In this document: positions 55,496 through 64,000 of the stretch, piece by piece
Layout of the letters: each line of letters starts with the position of its first letter
Position numbering within the stretch: position 1 is the stretch's first letter
Assembly (NCBI RefSeq): GCF_000730385.1
Contig: NZ_CP008849.1
Coordinates: 992,001-1,056,000, forward strand
Direction: 5' to 3'
Length of the DNA: 64,000 nucleotides
DNA from: Alteromonas australica
GTDB lineage: Bacteria > Pseudomonadota > Gammaproteobacteria > Enterobacterales > Alteromonadaceae
Translations under genes and position numbers: made by a program
The notes under the pieces: generated by a model
Seen by the model: the letters and a program-made list of their open reading frames with translations, nothing else
Database searches by the model: none
What the model was told of the DNA's origin: nothing

Positions 55496-56047
55496 GTGAT
55501 AAAGCCAGTGACAATCGATAATCAATTAGACCAATTTATATCTAGCTTCATTTCCTATCATCAGCAAAATAAGGGCGGGCTAACCATTCCTTATGACAGC
55601 AGCTGGCCGTCAACCTGCTATCAAGCCACAGGCCGCGAAGGTGAGGCCGTTCCCTGGTTACCGCAAAAGCGCGACACCACTGCTACTTTTGGTAACGTTG
55701 AAGAAGCGCTAGGGATCACCCTAAATAAGGCGTATTGCCAATTCTTTAGCCGTTACTTCAGCGACAATTTGCCCGCAGTAGCGCCCCAAGGAAATTGCGA
55801 ACTACTGCAAGTATGGAATAGCGATGACTTTACGCGCCTACAACAAAATCTAATAGGCCACCTGCTGATGAAACAAAGGTTAAGGCAGGCACCCACGTTA
55901 TTTTTTGCCCTTACCGATGAAGACGATTTTATACTTAGCCTACTTAACGATACAGGCGAGGTGGTCTTAGAACAGGTAGGTAAACCACCTAAAGAGGTTA
56001 TTGCAGCTAGCTTAGGTGATTTCTTAGCGTTGTTAACCCCTCGCTAG
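55496..56047 (+). CDS. syd: SecY-interacting protein Syd
   Basis: Syd (183 residues) is a peripheral inner-membrane protein that binds SecY and proofreads translocon assembly. The sequence matches the family along its length (CYQATGREGEAVPWLPQKRDT, FFSRYFSDNLPA, NCELLQVWNSDDF, LIGHLLMKQRLRQ). It starts at GTG 55496. In E. coli syd neighbours csrB, yqcC and truC; here those three lie about 5-8 kb downstream, after several accessory genes. Confidence 0.93.
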   Translation: MIKPVTIDNQLDQFISSFISYHQQNKGGLTIPYDSSWPSTCYQATGREGEAVPWLPQKRDTTATFGNVEEALGITLNKAYCQFFSRYFSDNLPAVAPQGNCELLQVWNSDDFTRLQQNLIGHLLMKQRLRQAPTLFFALTDEDDFILSLLNDTGEVVLEQVGKPPKEVIAASLGDFLALLTPR

Positions 56048-56992: not shown

Positions 56993-57661
56993 ATGAATAC
57001 TGCAACAGCATCATTGGCACCAAAAAAAGAAGAGATTAAAGCAATACATTTATCGGTAGACGATTTAAAAATTGCCGCATCCATTTTATTTAATGCCTAT
57101 GTAGATGACCCGCTTTTTGTTGATATTTTCCAAGCTGAAAAAGAAGGCTACGAAAGTCGGCTCCGTTCAGCCATTCGTGAAGAGCTCAATGCTTTTTGGG
57201 TGGCTGAACAACCAATGATTGGACTATTCCACGAATCACGATTGCTCTCAGTAGCCTGTTTAACTGGGCCAGATGCAGCCTTTGGAGCAGGAAGATACTG
57301 GCATTGGCGATTGCGCATGCTGCTTACCGCAGGCCTTTTTGGTACCAAGCAGATGTTAGAAAAAGAAGAGAAAGTACGCAATTTAGTACCCGCCGAAAAC
57401 TTCCACATGTTGAGCCCCGCCGAAAACGTCCACAGGGGGAGCGGGAGGGCGGGGCATCCTAAGGAGCAGCACGCCGGCGGAGGCCATATTTTGCTTGGCG
57501 CCATCGACAGTATTGTGAACGAAGATGTTTCTAGCGAAGGTGTTGCTGTGTTTGTCACCGTACCCAAACATAAGCTTTTCTTTAGCGATGATAACTACAG
57601 TGTAGTGGGTGAACTATGTTTGTCGCATGTGAAGGGCGAGGTGATGTTTAGGAAGCGGTGA
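56993..57661 (+). CDS. GNAT-family acetyltransferase-like protein with an internal 9-residue duplication
   Basis: The 222-residue protein follows a strong AGGAGG ribosome site. The acetyl-CoA loop QHAGGG fits the QxxGxG motif of the GNAT fold, followed by LLGAIDSIV, the strand VAVFVTVP and YSVVGELCL, which match the rest of the fold. Just before the loop, a 27-bp imperfect tandem repeat (57389-57407 and 57416-57434) encodes PAENFHMLS followed by PAENVHRGS, and then a GC-rich patch of about 60 bp. This inserts extra residues between strand 4 and the cofactor loop, so the enzyme may be altered. The substrate is unknown. Confidence 0.72.
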   Translation: MNTATASLAPKKEEIKAIHLSVDDLKIAASILFNAYVDDPLFVDIFQAEKEGYESRLRSAIREELNAFWVAEQPMIGLFHESRLLSVACLTGPDAAFGAGRYWHWRLRMLLTAGLFGTKQMLEKEEKVRNLVPAENFHMLSPAENVHRGSGRAGHPKEQHAGGGHILLGAIDSIVNEDVSSEGVAVFVTVPKHKLFFSDDNYSVVGELCLSHVKGEVMFRKR

Positions 57662-58571: not shown

Positions 58572-60716
58572 TTAGAAGTCAACTTTTACCTTCAATGCCA
58601 CTGTGCGAGGCTCGCCAATACGTAAGTTGCCTCCTCCATAAGAGTCGCCTACAGCCCAATATTCTTCGTCAAGAAGGTTGTCTACTGATCCAATTAAAGT
58701 AACGGCGTGATTGTCTATCTGCGTGGCATAACTCACACCACCGTATATAAGCGTATAAGACGGAACTTCCCAAGCATTAGCCGCATTAAGCGCCGCTTCA
58801 CCATGGAATTTTCCGCCTAAGTTAAGGGTTAGGCCTGGAATCGCTTCTACATTGTAATTGGTCTGTAACGTGAACTGTTGGTCGGGTGCACCCGCTACAT
58901 CGTTTCCTTGGTTGGATGTGGTTTTATCATATTCGGCGTCTAAGAACATAGCATCACCGTAGATGGAAAGATTTTGCGTAATTTCGTAAGCACCACTAAA
59001 TTCAATTCCTTGATAAAGTGTCACACCTTCTTGAATAAGGTAGTTTTCTTCGGTGACTAAGGTTGCGCCTTGCTCAATTTCAAAAACCGCGGCGCTGAGT
59101 GACCAACCCTCTCCTGATGTTTTTACCCCTAATTCATACTGCGAGCTTTCAAGTGGCTCGAGTAATTCATTGGCATTGGCATATTCTTCGCCAACAGCAG
59201 ATGTTTGTCCTTCAAAAGACTCTACATAGCTCGCATAGTAGGTTGTGCTGGCGCTAGGTTTGTACATTAATGCATAAGTGGGAGACATGGCTGTATCTTC
59301 GTAATCATCTTGTGACGATGAAAAATACTCACTCACTTCATGTTCAATTTCATTTGAACGAATACCTATTAACAATTCCCACTCATTGTTAAGGGCGATG
59401 AAATCGCTAATAAATACAGAGCGTTGTGTATCCACCCATGCAAGAGCTAAATCTTTTTGTAATGTAGGTACGTAGGTGGGCACATCCGCTTGTTCGTACA
59501 AATTATTGGTGGCGTAGTTGCGGGTAACTATTCGCCCATACTCACCGCCATCATTGCGGTAAGTACTTGCTTCTTGAAATGCCGCGCCCGCTACAATGTT
59601 GTGCTCTATAGCGCCGGTAGAAAAACTTCCCGTTAATACACCCTGAATTTGGTCGTAGTCAACATCAAAGTATTGCTCGTAGGTAAGTATGCTAAGGTCA
59701 CCATCACTATTTAACAGGTAGTTAAGGCTCTTTATCCAACTGGTTTCATTTTTAGAGTAGTCGTAGTCTAGTTTGAGTTGCCAGTTATCATCAATGTTCC
59801 ACTCTAATCCGGTTATGGCAATCATATTGGTATAGCCGTCGTATGTTCCAGGCACTGCCAAGTTTCTGCTGCCGTCTACGGTATCAGGCAATGGTTCGGC
59901 GTTGTCCATGGATACGGTAAATCTGTTCCAGGAATTTTCAACTAAGCGATCGCTGTAAATAACATCAACTGTCCACAATAAATTGTCGGTTAACGCGGCA
60001 TCTAAAGCGATAGAAGCGGTTTCTCTGTCTATGCCGCCGTCATCAAGATAGGTATCGCCATCTTCTTTAACCAGGTTTACTCGCAAGCCGTAAGCATCTT
60101 CATTGCCGAATCGCGTGCTAGCATCAATATGACCACTAAATACACTGTCACTACGCCAACCTACATTGGCGCTTAGTGCATCTGACGTGGCCCTTTTCGT
60201 CACATAGTTAACAATGCCACCGGGAGCAGCCATGCCGTACATAAAACCGGTTGCCCCTTTTATTAAGGTCACTTGCTCGAAGGCTTCATAGGGCAATTCA
60301 CCACTGAAGCTGTTTATCGACATACCGTTTACTTTAAAACTTTGGGTATAATCGAGTGGTAAACCCCGTACCCTTATTGTGTCACCGAACGAGCTATAAG
60401 CACTGCCGTCTACTGATACTGAAGCTTCTCGACTGAACAAGCTGTTCAGCGTATTTACTTGTCGAATTTCCATGTCTTCTAGCGAAATGACATCAACAGA
60501 AAATGGGGTGTCTTTAATCGCGCGTTTGCCTAATGCGCCACCGTCGTTTTGTTGCTCAAATTCAGTGATTTTATGTCCAACGACCGAAATGACTTCTAGC
60601 TCTTTTTCACTGGTTTCCTCTTGCGCAAATACAGTTGAATGGCCAGTGGCAGAGAGGGCGGCACAACAAGCGAGTACAAGTTTTTGCTTGTTGAACAAGG
60701 GGGGAGTGGTTTTCAT
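58572..60716 (-). CDS. TonB-dependent siderophore receptor
   Basis: The 714-residue outer-membrane receptor has a signal peptide ending near TVFAQ, a TonB-box-like LEVISVVG, and the siderophore-receptor plug (DTPFSVDVISLEDMEIRQVNTLNSLFSREASV, TIRVRGLPLDYTQSFKVNGM, GFMYGMAAPGGIVNYVTKRA). The barrel ends in ALKVKVDF. The ATG at 60714-60716 is chosen because AAAGGA lies 7 nt upstream; a start 30 codons further up has no such site. A Fur box sits in the promoter region, so iron starvation should induce it. The siderophore is unknown. Confidence 0.94.
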   Translation of the reverse strand: MKTTPPLFNKQKLVLACCAALSATGHSTVFAQEETSEKELEVISVVGHKITEFEQQNDGGALGKRAIKDTPFSVDVISLEDMEIRQVNTLNSLFSREASVSVDGSAYSSFGDTIRVRGLPLDYTQSFKVNGMSINSFSGELPYEAFEQVTLIKGATGFMYGMAAPGGIVNYVTKRATSDALSANVGWRSDSVFSGHIDASTRFGNEDAYGLRVNLVKEDGDTYLDDGGIDRETASIALDAALTDNLLWTVDVIYSDRLVENSWNRFTVSMDNAEPLPDTVDGSRNLAVPGTYDGYTNMIAITGLEWNIDDNWQLKLDYDYSKNETSWIKSLNYLLNSDGDLSILTYEQYFDVDYDQIQGVLTGSFSTGAIEHNIVAGAAFQEASTYRNDGGEYGRIVTRNYATNNLYEQADVPTYVPTLQKDLALAWVDTQRSVFISDFIALNNEWELLIGIRSNEIEHEVSEYFSSSQDDYEDTAMSPTYALMYKPSASTTYYASYVESFEGQTSAVGEEYANANELLEPLESSQYELGVKTSGEGWSLSAAVFEIEQGATLVTEENYLIQEGVTLYQGIEFSGAYEITQNLSIYGDAMFLDAEYDKTTSNQGNDVAGAPDQQFTLQTNYNVEAIPGLTLNLGGKFHGEAALNAANAWEVPSYTLIYGGVSYATQIDNHAVTLIGSVDNLLDEEYWAVGDSYGGGNLRIGEPRTVALKVKVDF

Positions 60717-60802
60717 GAATAGTCCTTTTAAAAAATCAAGAAAGGGAAACGAAGAAAGTGTGTCAACGTGTAGCGTAACGTTCCTTTCATGGATAACATA
60801 TA

Positions 60803-60821
60803 TCAAATGATAATCATTATC
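60803..60821 (-). promoter_or_regulatory. Fur box
   Basis: TCAAATGATAATCATTATC matches the 19-bp Fur consensus (GATAATGATAATCATTATC) at 16 positions. It lies about 90 bp upstream of the siderophore receptor start, where Fur-Fe(II) would block transcription. Confidence 0.85.
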
Positions 60822-61087
60822 AATCGCAGTTGGGTGTGCGCAAGAAAATCCGCATAGCCACTAATTTGGTTTTGATTAGAAAATGCTTTTGAAACCTTAC
60901 TATTGCTGGGCTTAATGATAATGGCGACGCTTACAGATGCTGTTTTTTGCTGTTTGTAAAGCTTTGGTAAAGGGGGGCGCAAAGGGACTCAGTGTATGTG
61001 ATACTCATCGTTCCTCATGCTGGGTGAAGTTTATTCTTATCAACTTCCCATCAATCTGCGAAACATCTCCACATTTTCTACTTAATT
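60822..61087. other. Non-coding gap before the CsrB-family RNA gene
   Basis: This stretch lies between the Fur box and the UvrY/GacA-type site and holds no credible gene. A 79-codon frame crossing it has no ribosome site and no family resemblance. Confidence 0.45.
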
Positions 61088-61105
61088 TGTACGAAATCTC
61101 TTACA
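61088..61105 (+). promoter_or_regulatory. UvrY/GacA-type upstream activating site
   Basis: TGTACGAAATCTCTTACA matches the inverted-repeat site TGTAAGAGATCTCTTACA of the BarA/UvrY (GacS/GacA) response regulator at 16 of 18 positions. A further TGTAAGA half-site follows at 61110-61116. It is centred about 177 bp before the predicted start of the RNA, the distal position typical for csrB/rsm promoters. Confidence 0.8.
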
Positions 61106-61230
61106 AGACTGTAAGAAAAGCCTCCTTTTTACCGCAAGACATATTTCTACTAAAGTCTAACGTCTTTGATTTATAACGATTTTTTAATTTTGCTTCATTT
61201 GGGTTCATCGATTACTTATTAAATTCCTTT

Positions 61231-61267
61231 AATTAGCCATAGCGCTAATTATCGAGAGGGATACTAT
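61231..61267 (+). promoter_or_regulatory. Predicted promoter of the CsrB-family RNA with an inverted repeat at -35
   Basis: TACTAT at 61262-61267 is a good -10 element with no clear -35, as expected for an activator-dependent promoter. A perfect inverted repeat, AATTAGC (61231-61237) and GCTAATT (61244-61250), covers the -35 region and may bind another regulator. Confidence 0.5.
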
Positions 61268-61273
61268 AAACAT

Positions 61274-61897
61274 CGTCACAGGGAAACACGACGAGTCAGG
61301 ATGATTCAAGGAAGACCCAGGACAACTTAAGGATGAGAATCTCCTCACAGGAGTGAGAGTTTAAGGATAAGCAGGAAGCTACAGGATTACACCAAGGTGT
61401 AAACAAATGGAATTGCTCACGGATGATTTAAAGGACGTAATGGAATTGCACGGATGATTTCGACAGGACGTCGACACAGGAAGTAACGTCGCTGGATGCG
61501 GCATAAGGACAGTCAGGAAAACACAGGGTGTGTTTTAGGGTACAGGACGTCACCCTCAAGGAAGATAGGATATCACGCGGGATGCGTTTGTAAGGACGGT
61601 TCAGGAAGAACCTGCTGCAGCAGGATGTGCAGCGTAGCATGGAGTAAGGGAAAGGATATCAGCGGAGGCTGAAAAGGACGACCTCAGGAAGAGGATCCCT
61701 GCATGTTAAGGATAGGCAGGTTTTAAGGGATAAACGGAAAGGAACCTACGCACGGACGGGTAGCTCGCTTAGGAAGAGTGAGAGAAGAAGGAAAGGGGCG
61801 TATAAGGATTTTAATCGGGACGATTTTAGTCGCAAGGGAGCGCAGAGAGGGAAGCTCAAAATTCCACAAAAGAGGTAGCTTAGCTACCTCTTTTTTT
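61274..61897 (+). ncRNA. csrB: Large CsrB-family CsrA-sequestering regulatory RNA
   Basis: By hand count this stretch of about 624 nt has about 44 GGA triplets on the plus strand (about 28 as AGGA), against only about 3 on the minus strand. Many sit in hairpin loops: CTCAC-AGGA-GTGAG, GGTTC-AGGAA-GAACC, CCTC-AGGAA-GAGG, TCAGC-GGAG-GCTGA, AATCG-GGA-CGATT and ACGC-GGGAT-GCGT. This is the architecture of CsrB/RsmZ RNAs, which titrate the translational regulator CsrA. It ends in a perfect terminator, has a UvrY/GacA site upstream and no coding frame. E. coli csrB also lies between syd and yqcC. E. coli CsrB is about 370 nt with about 20 GGA motifs, so this one is much larger. The 5' end is estimated from the -10 element. 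Confidence 0.9.
61871..61897 (+). terminator. Intrinsic terminator of the CsrB-family RNA
   Basis: AGAGGTAGC (61871-61879) and GCTACCTCT (61883-61891) form a perfect stem with a 3-nt loop, followed by a T run to 61897. It also serves the convergent DUF3301 gene, which has a TTTT on its own side. Confidence 0.93.
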
Positions 61898-61899
61898 GT

Positions 61900-62205
61900 T
61901 TAGTTCGCGCGATAGGGAGGCAGCGTCGTGTTTATCACAGTATTACCAACTAATGTAATCTCGCCGGTATATTTGTCTTCTCCATTTCCCGAAAACTCAA
62001 AGCGATACAGACTTAACCAATCCGGTTTTTGATATTTAAAAGTGAGTGATGTTTTTGCTCTGGCAACACTCAATAACTGCAATTGATGAGTGTCGCAATA
62101 TTGCTTTATATATTTGTCAGCGGTTTCTGAAATACTTCGTATACGCCAAAACTGAAATATCACAAAGGCTAAGCACAGCCATACGGTTAATTCTAATAGC
62201 GTCAT
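61900..62205 (-). CDS. DUF3301-family membrane-anchored protein
   Basis: The 101-residue protein has an N-terminal membrane helix (LLELTVWLCLAFVIFQFWRI) and a short domain typical of DUF3301 (CDTHQLQLLSVARAKTSLTF, YRFEFSGNGEDKYTGEI). The function is unknown. It is paired with the DUF3549 gene, 5 bp apart, as in other gammaproteobacteria, and ends 2 bp from the T run of the RNA terminator. Confidence 0.82.
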   Translation of the reverse strand: MTLLELTVWLCLAFVIFQFWRIRSISETADKYIKQYCDTHQLQLLSVARAKTSLTFKYQKPDWLSLYRFEFSGNGEDKYTGEITLVGNTVINTTLPPYRAN

Positions 62206-62210
62206 GGCAT

Positions 62211-63254
62211 TTATTGGCCTTTTGTTTGTGTAAAAAGCTTACCTATACAAACAGAAAGTTGCTCACTTCTTTCTGGCTTTCTCAGCATGGAAAGTACCGA
62301 TGTTCTTAAACTCGGAATTTGTACTAAATCCGAAAAGAAGCCAATAAATAACTCTCCGTTATAATTTTCGTTGTCGTCAGCTTTCGCCACAGCCTCAAAA
62401 AATAAATGAAGAAGTTCGTCGTTTAATTGCTGAAAATGCCGAGCAGCAACCACACTTAATATATCAAGACGTACGGAGGTATCGCGCGTAAGTAGTTTAC
62501 GAAGCAGGTTACCTATTTGCGAAGTCTCATTGCCGCTGGAAAGCCCTCGTAGTGCAGCAATATTGATATCATTTTGTGTTATTACTGCGTCTAAAAAGTG
62601 TCGTTCAATTGTCGGCGGTATTGAAACGCTTTCGCACATTTCCATGAAAGACTGTTGAAAGGACACCGCATAGCTGGTGAAACCTTCTTCTATTGTCTTT
62701 GCTACCTCAGTTTGCTGCTGCAGCGAAGCTGCTAAATCGGCAATGCCTTGCAGCGGTAAGGTTTGCCAATCCACTACTGATGGCGCTTTAATATAAGCCA
62801 AAACTTGTTCATAACTGCTACTTAAAGGTAGCGATAGTTGCTGGCGTACTTTCGCATTAAACTGGGCTAACTGTGATTGTGAGGGGACAAAAGAATAGGG
62901 ATTGTCGGGCAGCGATTTTGCGTTTTCTGTATCGTCGGCAATAGATTGACCAAGCGCGTCTACAATGATTTGTAAAAAATGGTTTCGGGTAGCGGTAACC
63001 ACTAAACCTTGTTCATCAATAGGTAATTTTATGAACCATATATAATGTTGATTAGAGGCGCGTTTATTCCAAAAAACAATGCCAAACCAAGCATGCTTTT
63101 GGCGAGGGAACGGGGGAATATGTAGGCCATTTTCAATGTTTAGGAAGGTTTGACTCTCAAGGGGTTCTATTCTGCGCCCTAAATCGAACACTAAATATTC
63201 AGTGCCAGCCTGCAAGAGGAATTCGCTGATAGAGTTAATTTGCTTTGCATCCAT
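62211..63254 (-). CDS. DUF3549-family protein
   Basis: The 347-residue cytoplasmic protein matches DUF3549: ISEFLLQAGTEYLVFDLGRRIEPL at the N terminus and FPRQKHAWFGIVFWNKRASNQHYIWFIKLPIDEQG after it. The C-terminal part is helical. The ATG at 63252-63254 has AGAAGG 6 nt upstream. Function is unknown. With DUF3301 it forms a two-gene unit divergent from yqcC-truC. Confidence 0.85.
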   Translation of the reverse strand: MDAKQINSISEFLLQAGTEYLVFDLGRRIEPLESQTFLNIENGLHIPPFPRQKHAWFGIVFWNKRASNQHYIWFIKLPIDEQGLVVTATRNHFLQIIVDALGQSIADDTENAKSLPDNPYSFVPSQSQLAQFNAKVRQQLSLPLSSSYEQVLAYIKAPSVVDWQTLPLQGIADLAASLQQQTEVAKTIEEGFTSYAVSFQQSFMEMCESVSIPPTIERHFLDAVITQNDINIAALRGLSSGNETSQIGNLLRKLLTRDTSVRLDILSVVAARHFQQLNDELLHLFFEAVAKADDNENYNGELFIGFFSDLVQIPSLRTSVLSMLRKPERSEQLSVCIGKLFTQTKGQ

Positions 63255-63431
63255 TGGAAGCCTTCTCATTAGTCATTGAAAAAGTAGGGCGCAGAGTTTA
63301 TCACAGATATTGCACACGCTTACAAGCCCCTTAAAAATTCCGCCAATAGCCTTAATTTGGTATACTTACAACGTTACTTTTACACCGTGTTTAGTAAGTG
63401 ACACCTTATTATTGTGACATTCGGAGTGTGC

Positions 63432-63764
63432 ATGTCATCTGTTTATGAATTTGAGTTACAACTCGACGCATTAGAACACGCGATCAAACAATGTGGTGTA
63501 TGGCCCACGGTAAAGCCAAGCCAACTTGCACTAGCAAGTCAGCAGCCGTTCGCTGTGGATACTATGGACTTCGTTAGCTGGCTGGTGTTTATTTTTCTTA
63601 AAAAGTGCAGGGCGCTGGTGGCGCAGAAACAGTTGCCACCACCTATGGCAGTAGCGCCAGCAGCCCAGGTGGCGTTATCTTCTTGTGAGAAAGCTATCAT
63701 TGAAATACTAACATCACTAGACGCACTCACACACGGCCTCTCGCCGACCACCGGAAAAGAATAA
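63432..63764 (+). CDS. yqcC: YqcC-family protein
   Basis: The 110-residue protein matches YqcC of E. coli (LDALEHAIKQCGVWPTVKPS, FAVDTMDFVSWLVFIFLKKCRAL, then AVAPAAQVAL). Its function is unknown. The ATG at 63432 has GGAG 6 nt upstream. It ends 1 bp before truC, the same pair as in E. coli, where csrB and syd lie next to it. Confidence 0.9.
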   Translation: MSSVYEFELQLDALEHAIKQCGVWPTVKPSQLALASQQPFAVDTMDFVSWLVFIFLKKCRALVAQKQLPPPMAVAPAAQVALSSCEKAIIEILTSLDALTHGLSPTTGKE

Positions 63765-63765
63765 A

Positions 63766-64000
63766 ATGAATTCGGATTTATCTGCTCGCCTACATACAGA
63801 AGGTGCTTCAGATTTCTTTACGCAGCCCCCGTTATCGGTGCTATATCAAGATGAGCATATCGTCGCAATAGACAAGCCTCCGGGTTTATTGGTGCACCGA
63901 AGCCCTATTGATAAAAAGGAAACACGTTTTGCTGTTCAGACTTTGCGTGATCAGTTAGGAAAGCATGTGTTTCCTGCTCACCGGCTAGATCGCCCTACGT
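63766..64000 (+). CDS. truC: tRNA pseudouridine(65) synthase TruC, 3' truncated by window edge
   Basis: Only the first 78 codons are in the window. They show the RluA-type N terminus: LYQDEHIVAIDKPPGLLVHRSPID and the catalytic-loop motif HRLDRPT, whose Asp attacks the uridine. TruC modifies U65 in several tRNAs. The ATG is one base after the yqcC stop, so the two are co-transcribed. Confidence 0.93.
   Translation, partial: MNSDLSARLHTEGASDFFTQPPLSVLYQDEHIVAIDKPPGLLVHRSPIDKKETRFAVQTLRDQLGKHVFPAHRLDRPT

Follow-up and report, generated by a model that had tools for sequence, protein, structure and literature searches.

The window analysed here is a stretch of 64,000 nt from Alteromonas australica (contig NZ_CP008849.1, positions 992,001 to 1,056,000, forward strand), and all coordinates refer to it. 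The gap under study is flanked by an ORF for a TonB-dependent receptor and by a DUF3301 gene, both on the minus strand, and holds just two ORFs of at least 60 aa (Table 1). Within it, the interval 61274-61897 (31% G, 33% A) contains 44 GGA triplets on the plus strand and 3 on the minus strand, so the approximate counts of the original prediction, which placed a very large CsrB-family RNA here, were exact. Dinucleotide shuffles of the interval gave a mean of 23.9 GGA (sd 3.1, maximum 33, n = 1000), and 624-nt stretches elsewhere in the window, taken in steps of 10, held at most 13. Head-to-tail duplication was considered for 61200-61900 and rejected, the direct repeats there being just 15-18 nt.

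Table 1. Coordinates of genes, RNA features and model matches in the window.
Feature	Position	Strand	Remarks
syd (PF07348)	55496-56047	+	Upstream neighbour of csrB in E. coli
TonB-dependent receptor ORF	58572-60806	-	Flanks the gap
79-aa ORF, no name	60937-61176	+	Upstream of the RNA
UvrY/GacA box TGTACGAAATCTCTTACA	61088-61105	+	11/12 consensus positions; centre ~178 bp upstream of the predicted RNA start
Extra half-site TGTAAGAAA	61110-61118	+	4 bp past the box; comparable to E. coli TGTAGGAGA
Rfam CsrB match	61230-61540	+	25.5 bits (E 4.9e-5), under the 71-bit gathering cut-off
-10 element TACTAT	61262-61267	+	Conserved across the genus
CsrB-type RNA, 623 nt, 44 GGA	61275-61897	+	5' end predicted, 7 nt past the -10 element; 3' end at the last base of the T run behind the terminator stem
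Conserved 5' module GTCACAGGGAAACACGACGAGTCAGGATGA	61275-61304	+	
Variable middle, limits approximate	61390-61597	+	Most of the length difference to relatives; most of it absent from sister G029
70-aa ORF	61428-61640	-	Antisense to the RNA
Rfam CsrB match	61555-61901	+	48.2 bits (E 6.3e-12), under the 71-bit gathering cut-off
Conserved 3' half	61598-61897	+	11 helices in the consensus fold, GGA in several of their loops; supported by compensatory changes
Intrinsic terminator, perfect 12-pair stem	61868-61894	+	T run ends at 61897
DUF3301 gene	61900-62205	-	Convergent with the RNA
DUF3549 gene	62211-63269	-	
yqcC (PF04287, DUF446)	63414-63764	+	Downstream neighbour of csrB in E. coli
truC, 5' part	63766-63999	+	PF00849 match; named by its place after yqcC; cut at the window end

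In E. coli MG1655, syd, csrB, yqcC and truC share one strand. The window has the order syd, RNA, yqcC, truC, all on the plus strand, and judged by this gene order the gap is the csrB position. Unlike at the E. coli locus, the RNA is separated from yqcC by the DUF3301 and DUF3549 genes and from syd by several others.

The locus was scanned with the Rfam CsrB covariance model, the check attached to the original prediction. RF00018 was the best match, found twice and above background, and both matches span model positions 1-356 of 356. Both scores fall short of Rfam's 71-bit gathering threshold, a curated cut-off that says nothing on function, and the whole window scanned at this threshold gave no match. 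Genome-wide, the top CsrB match was the window locus (37.7 bits, E 1.2e-8); E. coli csrB, the positive control, scored 380.4 bits. Six loci of relatives were also scanned: three matched at 42-59 bits, and the other three (L016, L064 and L113) gave no match at E 0.01. The CsrB model therefore detects the Alteromonas lineage weakly.

Upstream of the RNA, a UvrY/GacA box was identified against the consensus TGTAAGN6CTTACA. In the genus, all 63 measured copies (57 genomes) had their best box between -175 and -190, matching 10-12 of the 12 consensus positions, and in 60 of them it fell at -182 to -190; shuffled upstream regions (n = 630) reached 10 of 12 positions in 1.9% of cases and never more. 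Inside the window RNA, the best match to the box reached 8/12 only. In E. coli, the first position of the box is -191 relative to the annotated start of csrB. UvrY has been shown to bind this E. coli repeat, whose reported centre is -183/-182, and another half-site, conserved in part, follows 5 bp after the box (PMC4682653). A TGTRNG half-site no more than 18 nt after the box was present in 53/63 genus copies. The sigma-70 consensus scan listed nothing on the plus strand at the RNA promoter, and because it missed TACTAT, the -10 assignment rests on conservation in the genus. No IHF site of the kind present at E. coli csrB stood out; a score of at least 8 was obtained in 33/63 copies and in 32% of shuffles. 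The combined pattern of box, spacer and 5' motif occurred in 59 of 59 genus genomes, and a reversed control pattern in 0. The genome also encodes a UvrY orthologue (52% identity to E. coli UvrY, E 8.7e-71), whose gene adjoins uvrC, as it does in E. coli, and one csrA gene (E 1e-24). In another genome, G023, a second, weak CsrA-like match (G023:C1:3295722-3295820, 23 bits, cut-off 27) was noted besides the true csrA.

At least a dozen hairpins with GGA in the loop had been claimed, and the minimum free energy fold of 61275-61866 contains 14 of them among 17 predicted hairpins. Shuffles that kept GGA blocks intact (n = 60) averaged 4.4 such hairpins of 11.1, with a maximum of 12. In the predicted fold, GGA had a mean unpaired probability of 0.71 (0.32 for other G), and many of the triplets fall in hairpin loops or single strands. 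The perfect terminator expected at the RNA end is present, its stem being followed by the sole run of at least five T in the RNA. Covariation was analysed in the 3' 300 nt with 24 relatives, since the middle of the 5' half was too variable. In the consensus fold of this part, 98.3% of cells pair, 27 of the 63 consensus pairs changed on both sides, and sliding the partners lowered pairing to 38-45%; 0/500 shuffles matched the observed covariation value on any of five measures. A conserved secondary structure is thus present in the 3' 300 nt.

A CsrB-type RNA was found in all 59 genus genomes searched. Copies with well-defined ends are 330-835 nt long with 20-53 GGA; across the genus the 5' start and 3' end are kept and the middle varies, and the 5' and 3' modules occur together in short and long versions alike. 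The predicted size of about 624 nt agrees with the 623 nt between the start placed from the -10 element and the end of the T run. This RNA is large for the genus, with several members as long or longer, and is not unique. One copy was found in 47 genomes (387-835 nt), with at least 590 nt in 23 and at least 44 GGA in 20 of these. Two or three copies were found in the other 12 genomes, of which the exact pattern identified 11 and a motif script G010; in the 11 genomes where the primary copy could be measured, it is 331-343 nt. A constant GGA total per genome was rejected, as totals were 28-53 in the 47 one-copy genomes and 42-79 in the nine multi-copy genomes with every copy measured. Copy counts come from the exact pattern, which missed the second copy of G010, so a genome counted as single-copy may hold a further one unseen. 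An antisense match with 7 GGA in G045 was excluded from the copies, the second copy of G034 (774 nt called, no near terminator) was excluded from the lengths, and the primary RNA of G057 is cut by a contig end. The absence of internal terminators in 63/63 copies follows from how ends were set and carries no evidential weight. In a midpoint-rooted tree, from which the second copies of G042 and G048 were left out, 11/11 measured short primary copies form one clade (support 0.89); since the short copies are probably one clade, the length and copy-number contrast may correspond to a single evolutionary event. The nearest relative in a DUF3549 tree of 50/59 genus genomes, G029, has an RNA of 495 nt with 35 GGA. 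The longest RNA, ~835 nt with 53 GGA, is at L064 (G019). At L060, G016 carries two tandem short CsrB-like RNAs of 344 and 348 nt; a separate UvrY box precedes each, and together with the main copy they bring the total of this genome to three.

Outside the genus, the DUF3549 gene was found in 198/394 genomes searched, and 20 loci beside it were fetched. GGA clusters above threshold were present in 11/20 (7/8 from the same family, 4/12 from other families), giving 16 clusters of 10-33 GGA over 158-512 nt each, with one locus interrupted by N; in the 7 kb examined of each of the remaining 9/20 loci, no such cluster was found. In this small sample of 20 outside loci, the largest forms are those of Alteromonas. 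Two loci from another family of the order, L122 (G162) and L131 (G088), have two adjacent GGA-rich clusters near DUF3549; a tandem arrangement of CsrB-like RNAs may therefore have evolved outside Alteromonas too.

The window RNA was compared with Csr RNAs of other gammaproteobacteria. It shares with E. coli CsrB (RF00018) the syd/yqcC/truC neighbourhood and strand, a UvrY box at a near-equal distance, a GTC...AGGGA start (GTCGACAGGGA in E. coli), repeated GGA and an intrinsic terminator. The original yardstick of about 370 nt and about 20 motifs for known CsrB RNAs holds for E. coli, whose CsrB has 22 GGA in 369 nt (44 GGA in 623 nt here), and fails for Shewanella oneidensis, where CsrB1 and CsrB2 are predicted at 420 and 421 nt (PMC3171408). 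The Shewanella RNAs share the UvrY box and the many AGGA motifs with the window RNA and are UvrY-dependent, but are present as two copies; Northern bands of csrB2 are reported near 700, 600 and 450 (PMC3171408). In Pseudoalteromonas fuliginea, another marine gammaproteobacterium, the Csr RNAs Pf1-Pf3 have 25, 21 and 9 GGA, in contrast to one RNA with 44 (PMC11882849). Multiple Csr RNAs are there called probably the commonest situation (PMC11882849); they were not seen in 47/59 Alteromonas genomes.

One UvrY-box RNA each was found in G020 and G023, whose species identity, as used in the identity comparison that follows, is our assumption. The two RNAs are 85% identical, and Hou et al. give 77% between species. 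Two published transcripts of the genus resemble the window RNA in their very high expression and consistent chromosomal region. AltRNa1 of A. mediterranea DE1 was described in 2014 from RNA-seq as a 424-nt RNA of unknown class, expressed at ~5,100-143,800 RPKM, which its authors considered comparable to ribosomal genes (PMC4223743). Aln1a-c of Alteromonas macleodii Te101 (2018) are three CsrB-like RNAs with A(N)GGA motifs, with three start sites located within 404 nt. No other gene in that data set was expressed more highly, and non-coding start sites accounted for ~87% of primary reads, the Aln1 region contributing most of these (PMC5864184). The words uvrY and gacA are absent from the main text of the latter paper. 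The order RNase P, RNA, SRP RNA agrees between AltRNa1 and the UvrY-box RNA, with distances to RNase P and SRP RNA of 140 and 193 kb in G023 vs 174 and 173 kb in AltDE1, and the locus tags place Aln1 before csrA, like the UvrY-box RNA. AltRNa1 and Aln1a-c probably report the csrB locus of the window type; this is an identity that we infer, because the distances and identities fit inexactly. Among the matches listed from the open-access literature, none describes a CsrB of ~620 nt or a length series for Alteromonas or the Alteromonadales. What is new here is the full extent as one UvrY-box RNA, the orthology and the pattern of lengths and copies; the kind of RNA was already known.

Three other explanations of the locus were weighed. 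That the GGA richness stems from base composition alone, or from a coding region, is practically negligible: the region is rich in G and A, and antisense ORFs exist (70 aa in the window, 120 aa in G020), but GGA exceeds the dinucleotide shuffles, promoter and terminator are conserved at both ends, lengths vary widely among relatives, and the covariation speaks strongly against either source. A head-to-tail fusion of two CsrB genes with loss of the first terminator would account for the tandem Rfam matches, and separate tandem copies do exist in G016. Any array of GGA hairpins may match the CsrB model, however, and the relatives form a graded length series among one-copy genomes, in which the length difference sits in the middle rather than in a duplicated 5' or 3' module. 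Neither a duplicate 5' module nor a relic of an internal terminator was noticed on incidental inspection of the genus loci, and such a fusion is considered very improbable.

The locus could also yield several shorter RNAs, overlapping or processed, which would still sequester CsrA. The three Aln1a-c start sites (PMC5864184), the measured size of AltRNa1 (PMC4223743) and the two head-to-tail Rfam matches all fit such a set. Against it, a UvrY box is found at the 5' end only, the RNA has no run of five or more T before its terminator, and the 5' and 3' modules co-occur whatever the length; the published sizes could reflect internal stable 5' ends, or ORFs annotated across part of the region. Several shorter RNAs thus appear unlikely, and production of one full-length transcript of ~620 nt is judged likely.

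The preferred reading, a csrB orthologue controlled by UvrY and made as one RNA of ~620 nt that sequesters CsrA, is given a probability of about 0.92. CsrB-family identity, as originally proposed, is supported by the covariance match, synteny, the UvrY box, GGA loops with covariation, and the presence of CsrA and UvrY; orthology to E. coli csrB is almost certain. Phosphorylated UvrY would bind the upstream box and switch on the promoter near the -10 element, as the conserved box and spacing suggest, and a single non-coding RNA would end at the terminator (61868-61897 with its T run). By analogy with the family, short hairpins and single-stranded linkers would offer ~44 GGA sites to CsrA dimers, and sequestration of CsrA would free CsrA-repressed mRNAs. 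The middle of the RNA appears to have grown or shrunk within Alteromonas, which would therefore have left the window copy with twice the GGA of E. coli CsrB. E. coli CsrB holds ~18 CsrA subunits (PMC7652899). At that occupancy, the window RNA would by extrapolation hold ~36, and it is considered fairly likely that each molecule truly binds more CsrA than one of E. coli CsrB, as the original prediction supposed.

Alteromonas is a widespread marine copiotroph, and the AltRNa1 and Aln1 transcripts of relatives, probably from the locus studied here, have been reported to rank among the most abundant RNAs; csrB synteny and the UvrY box tie these transcripts to a concrete, testable regulatory model. 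It is tentatively suggested, with some doubt, that CsrA-titration capacity is under selection in the genus and was reached by two routes, lengthening of a single CsrB or possession of two to three short ones. How many GGA sites each RNA molecule carries would then be a trait that evolution can tune, and a single long RNA would supply every site together, from one promoter. With lengths of 330-835 nt and one to three copies in one genus, these RNAs form a natural series for testing sequestration against GGA number.

Two further observations concern the neighbouring genes. The ORF at 56993-57661 had no Pfam match; in G020, the corresponding ORF (L010 236-883) gave a match to the GNAT acetyltransferase family. 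Compared by eye, the middle of the window ORF, MLSPAENVHRGSGRAGHPKEQHAGGGHI, is unlike the MLSFIAVHPDYQHHGLGHI of relatives, and this ORF is possibly a diverged or altered copy. Just upstream of the TonB-dependent receptor ORF, the sequence GATAATCATTATCAAT at 60809-60824 resembles what we take to be the Fur box motif, and this putative site suggests iron control of the receptor gene.
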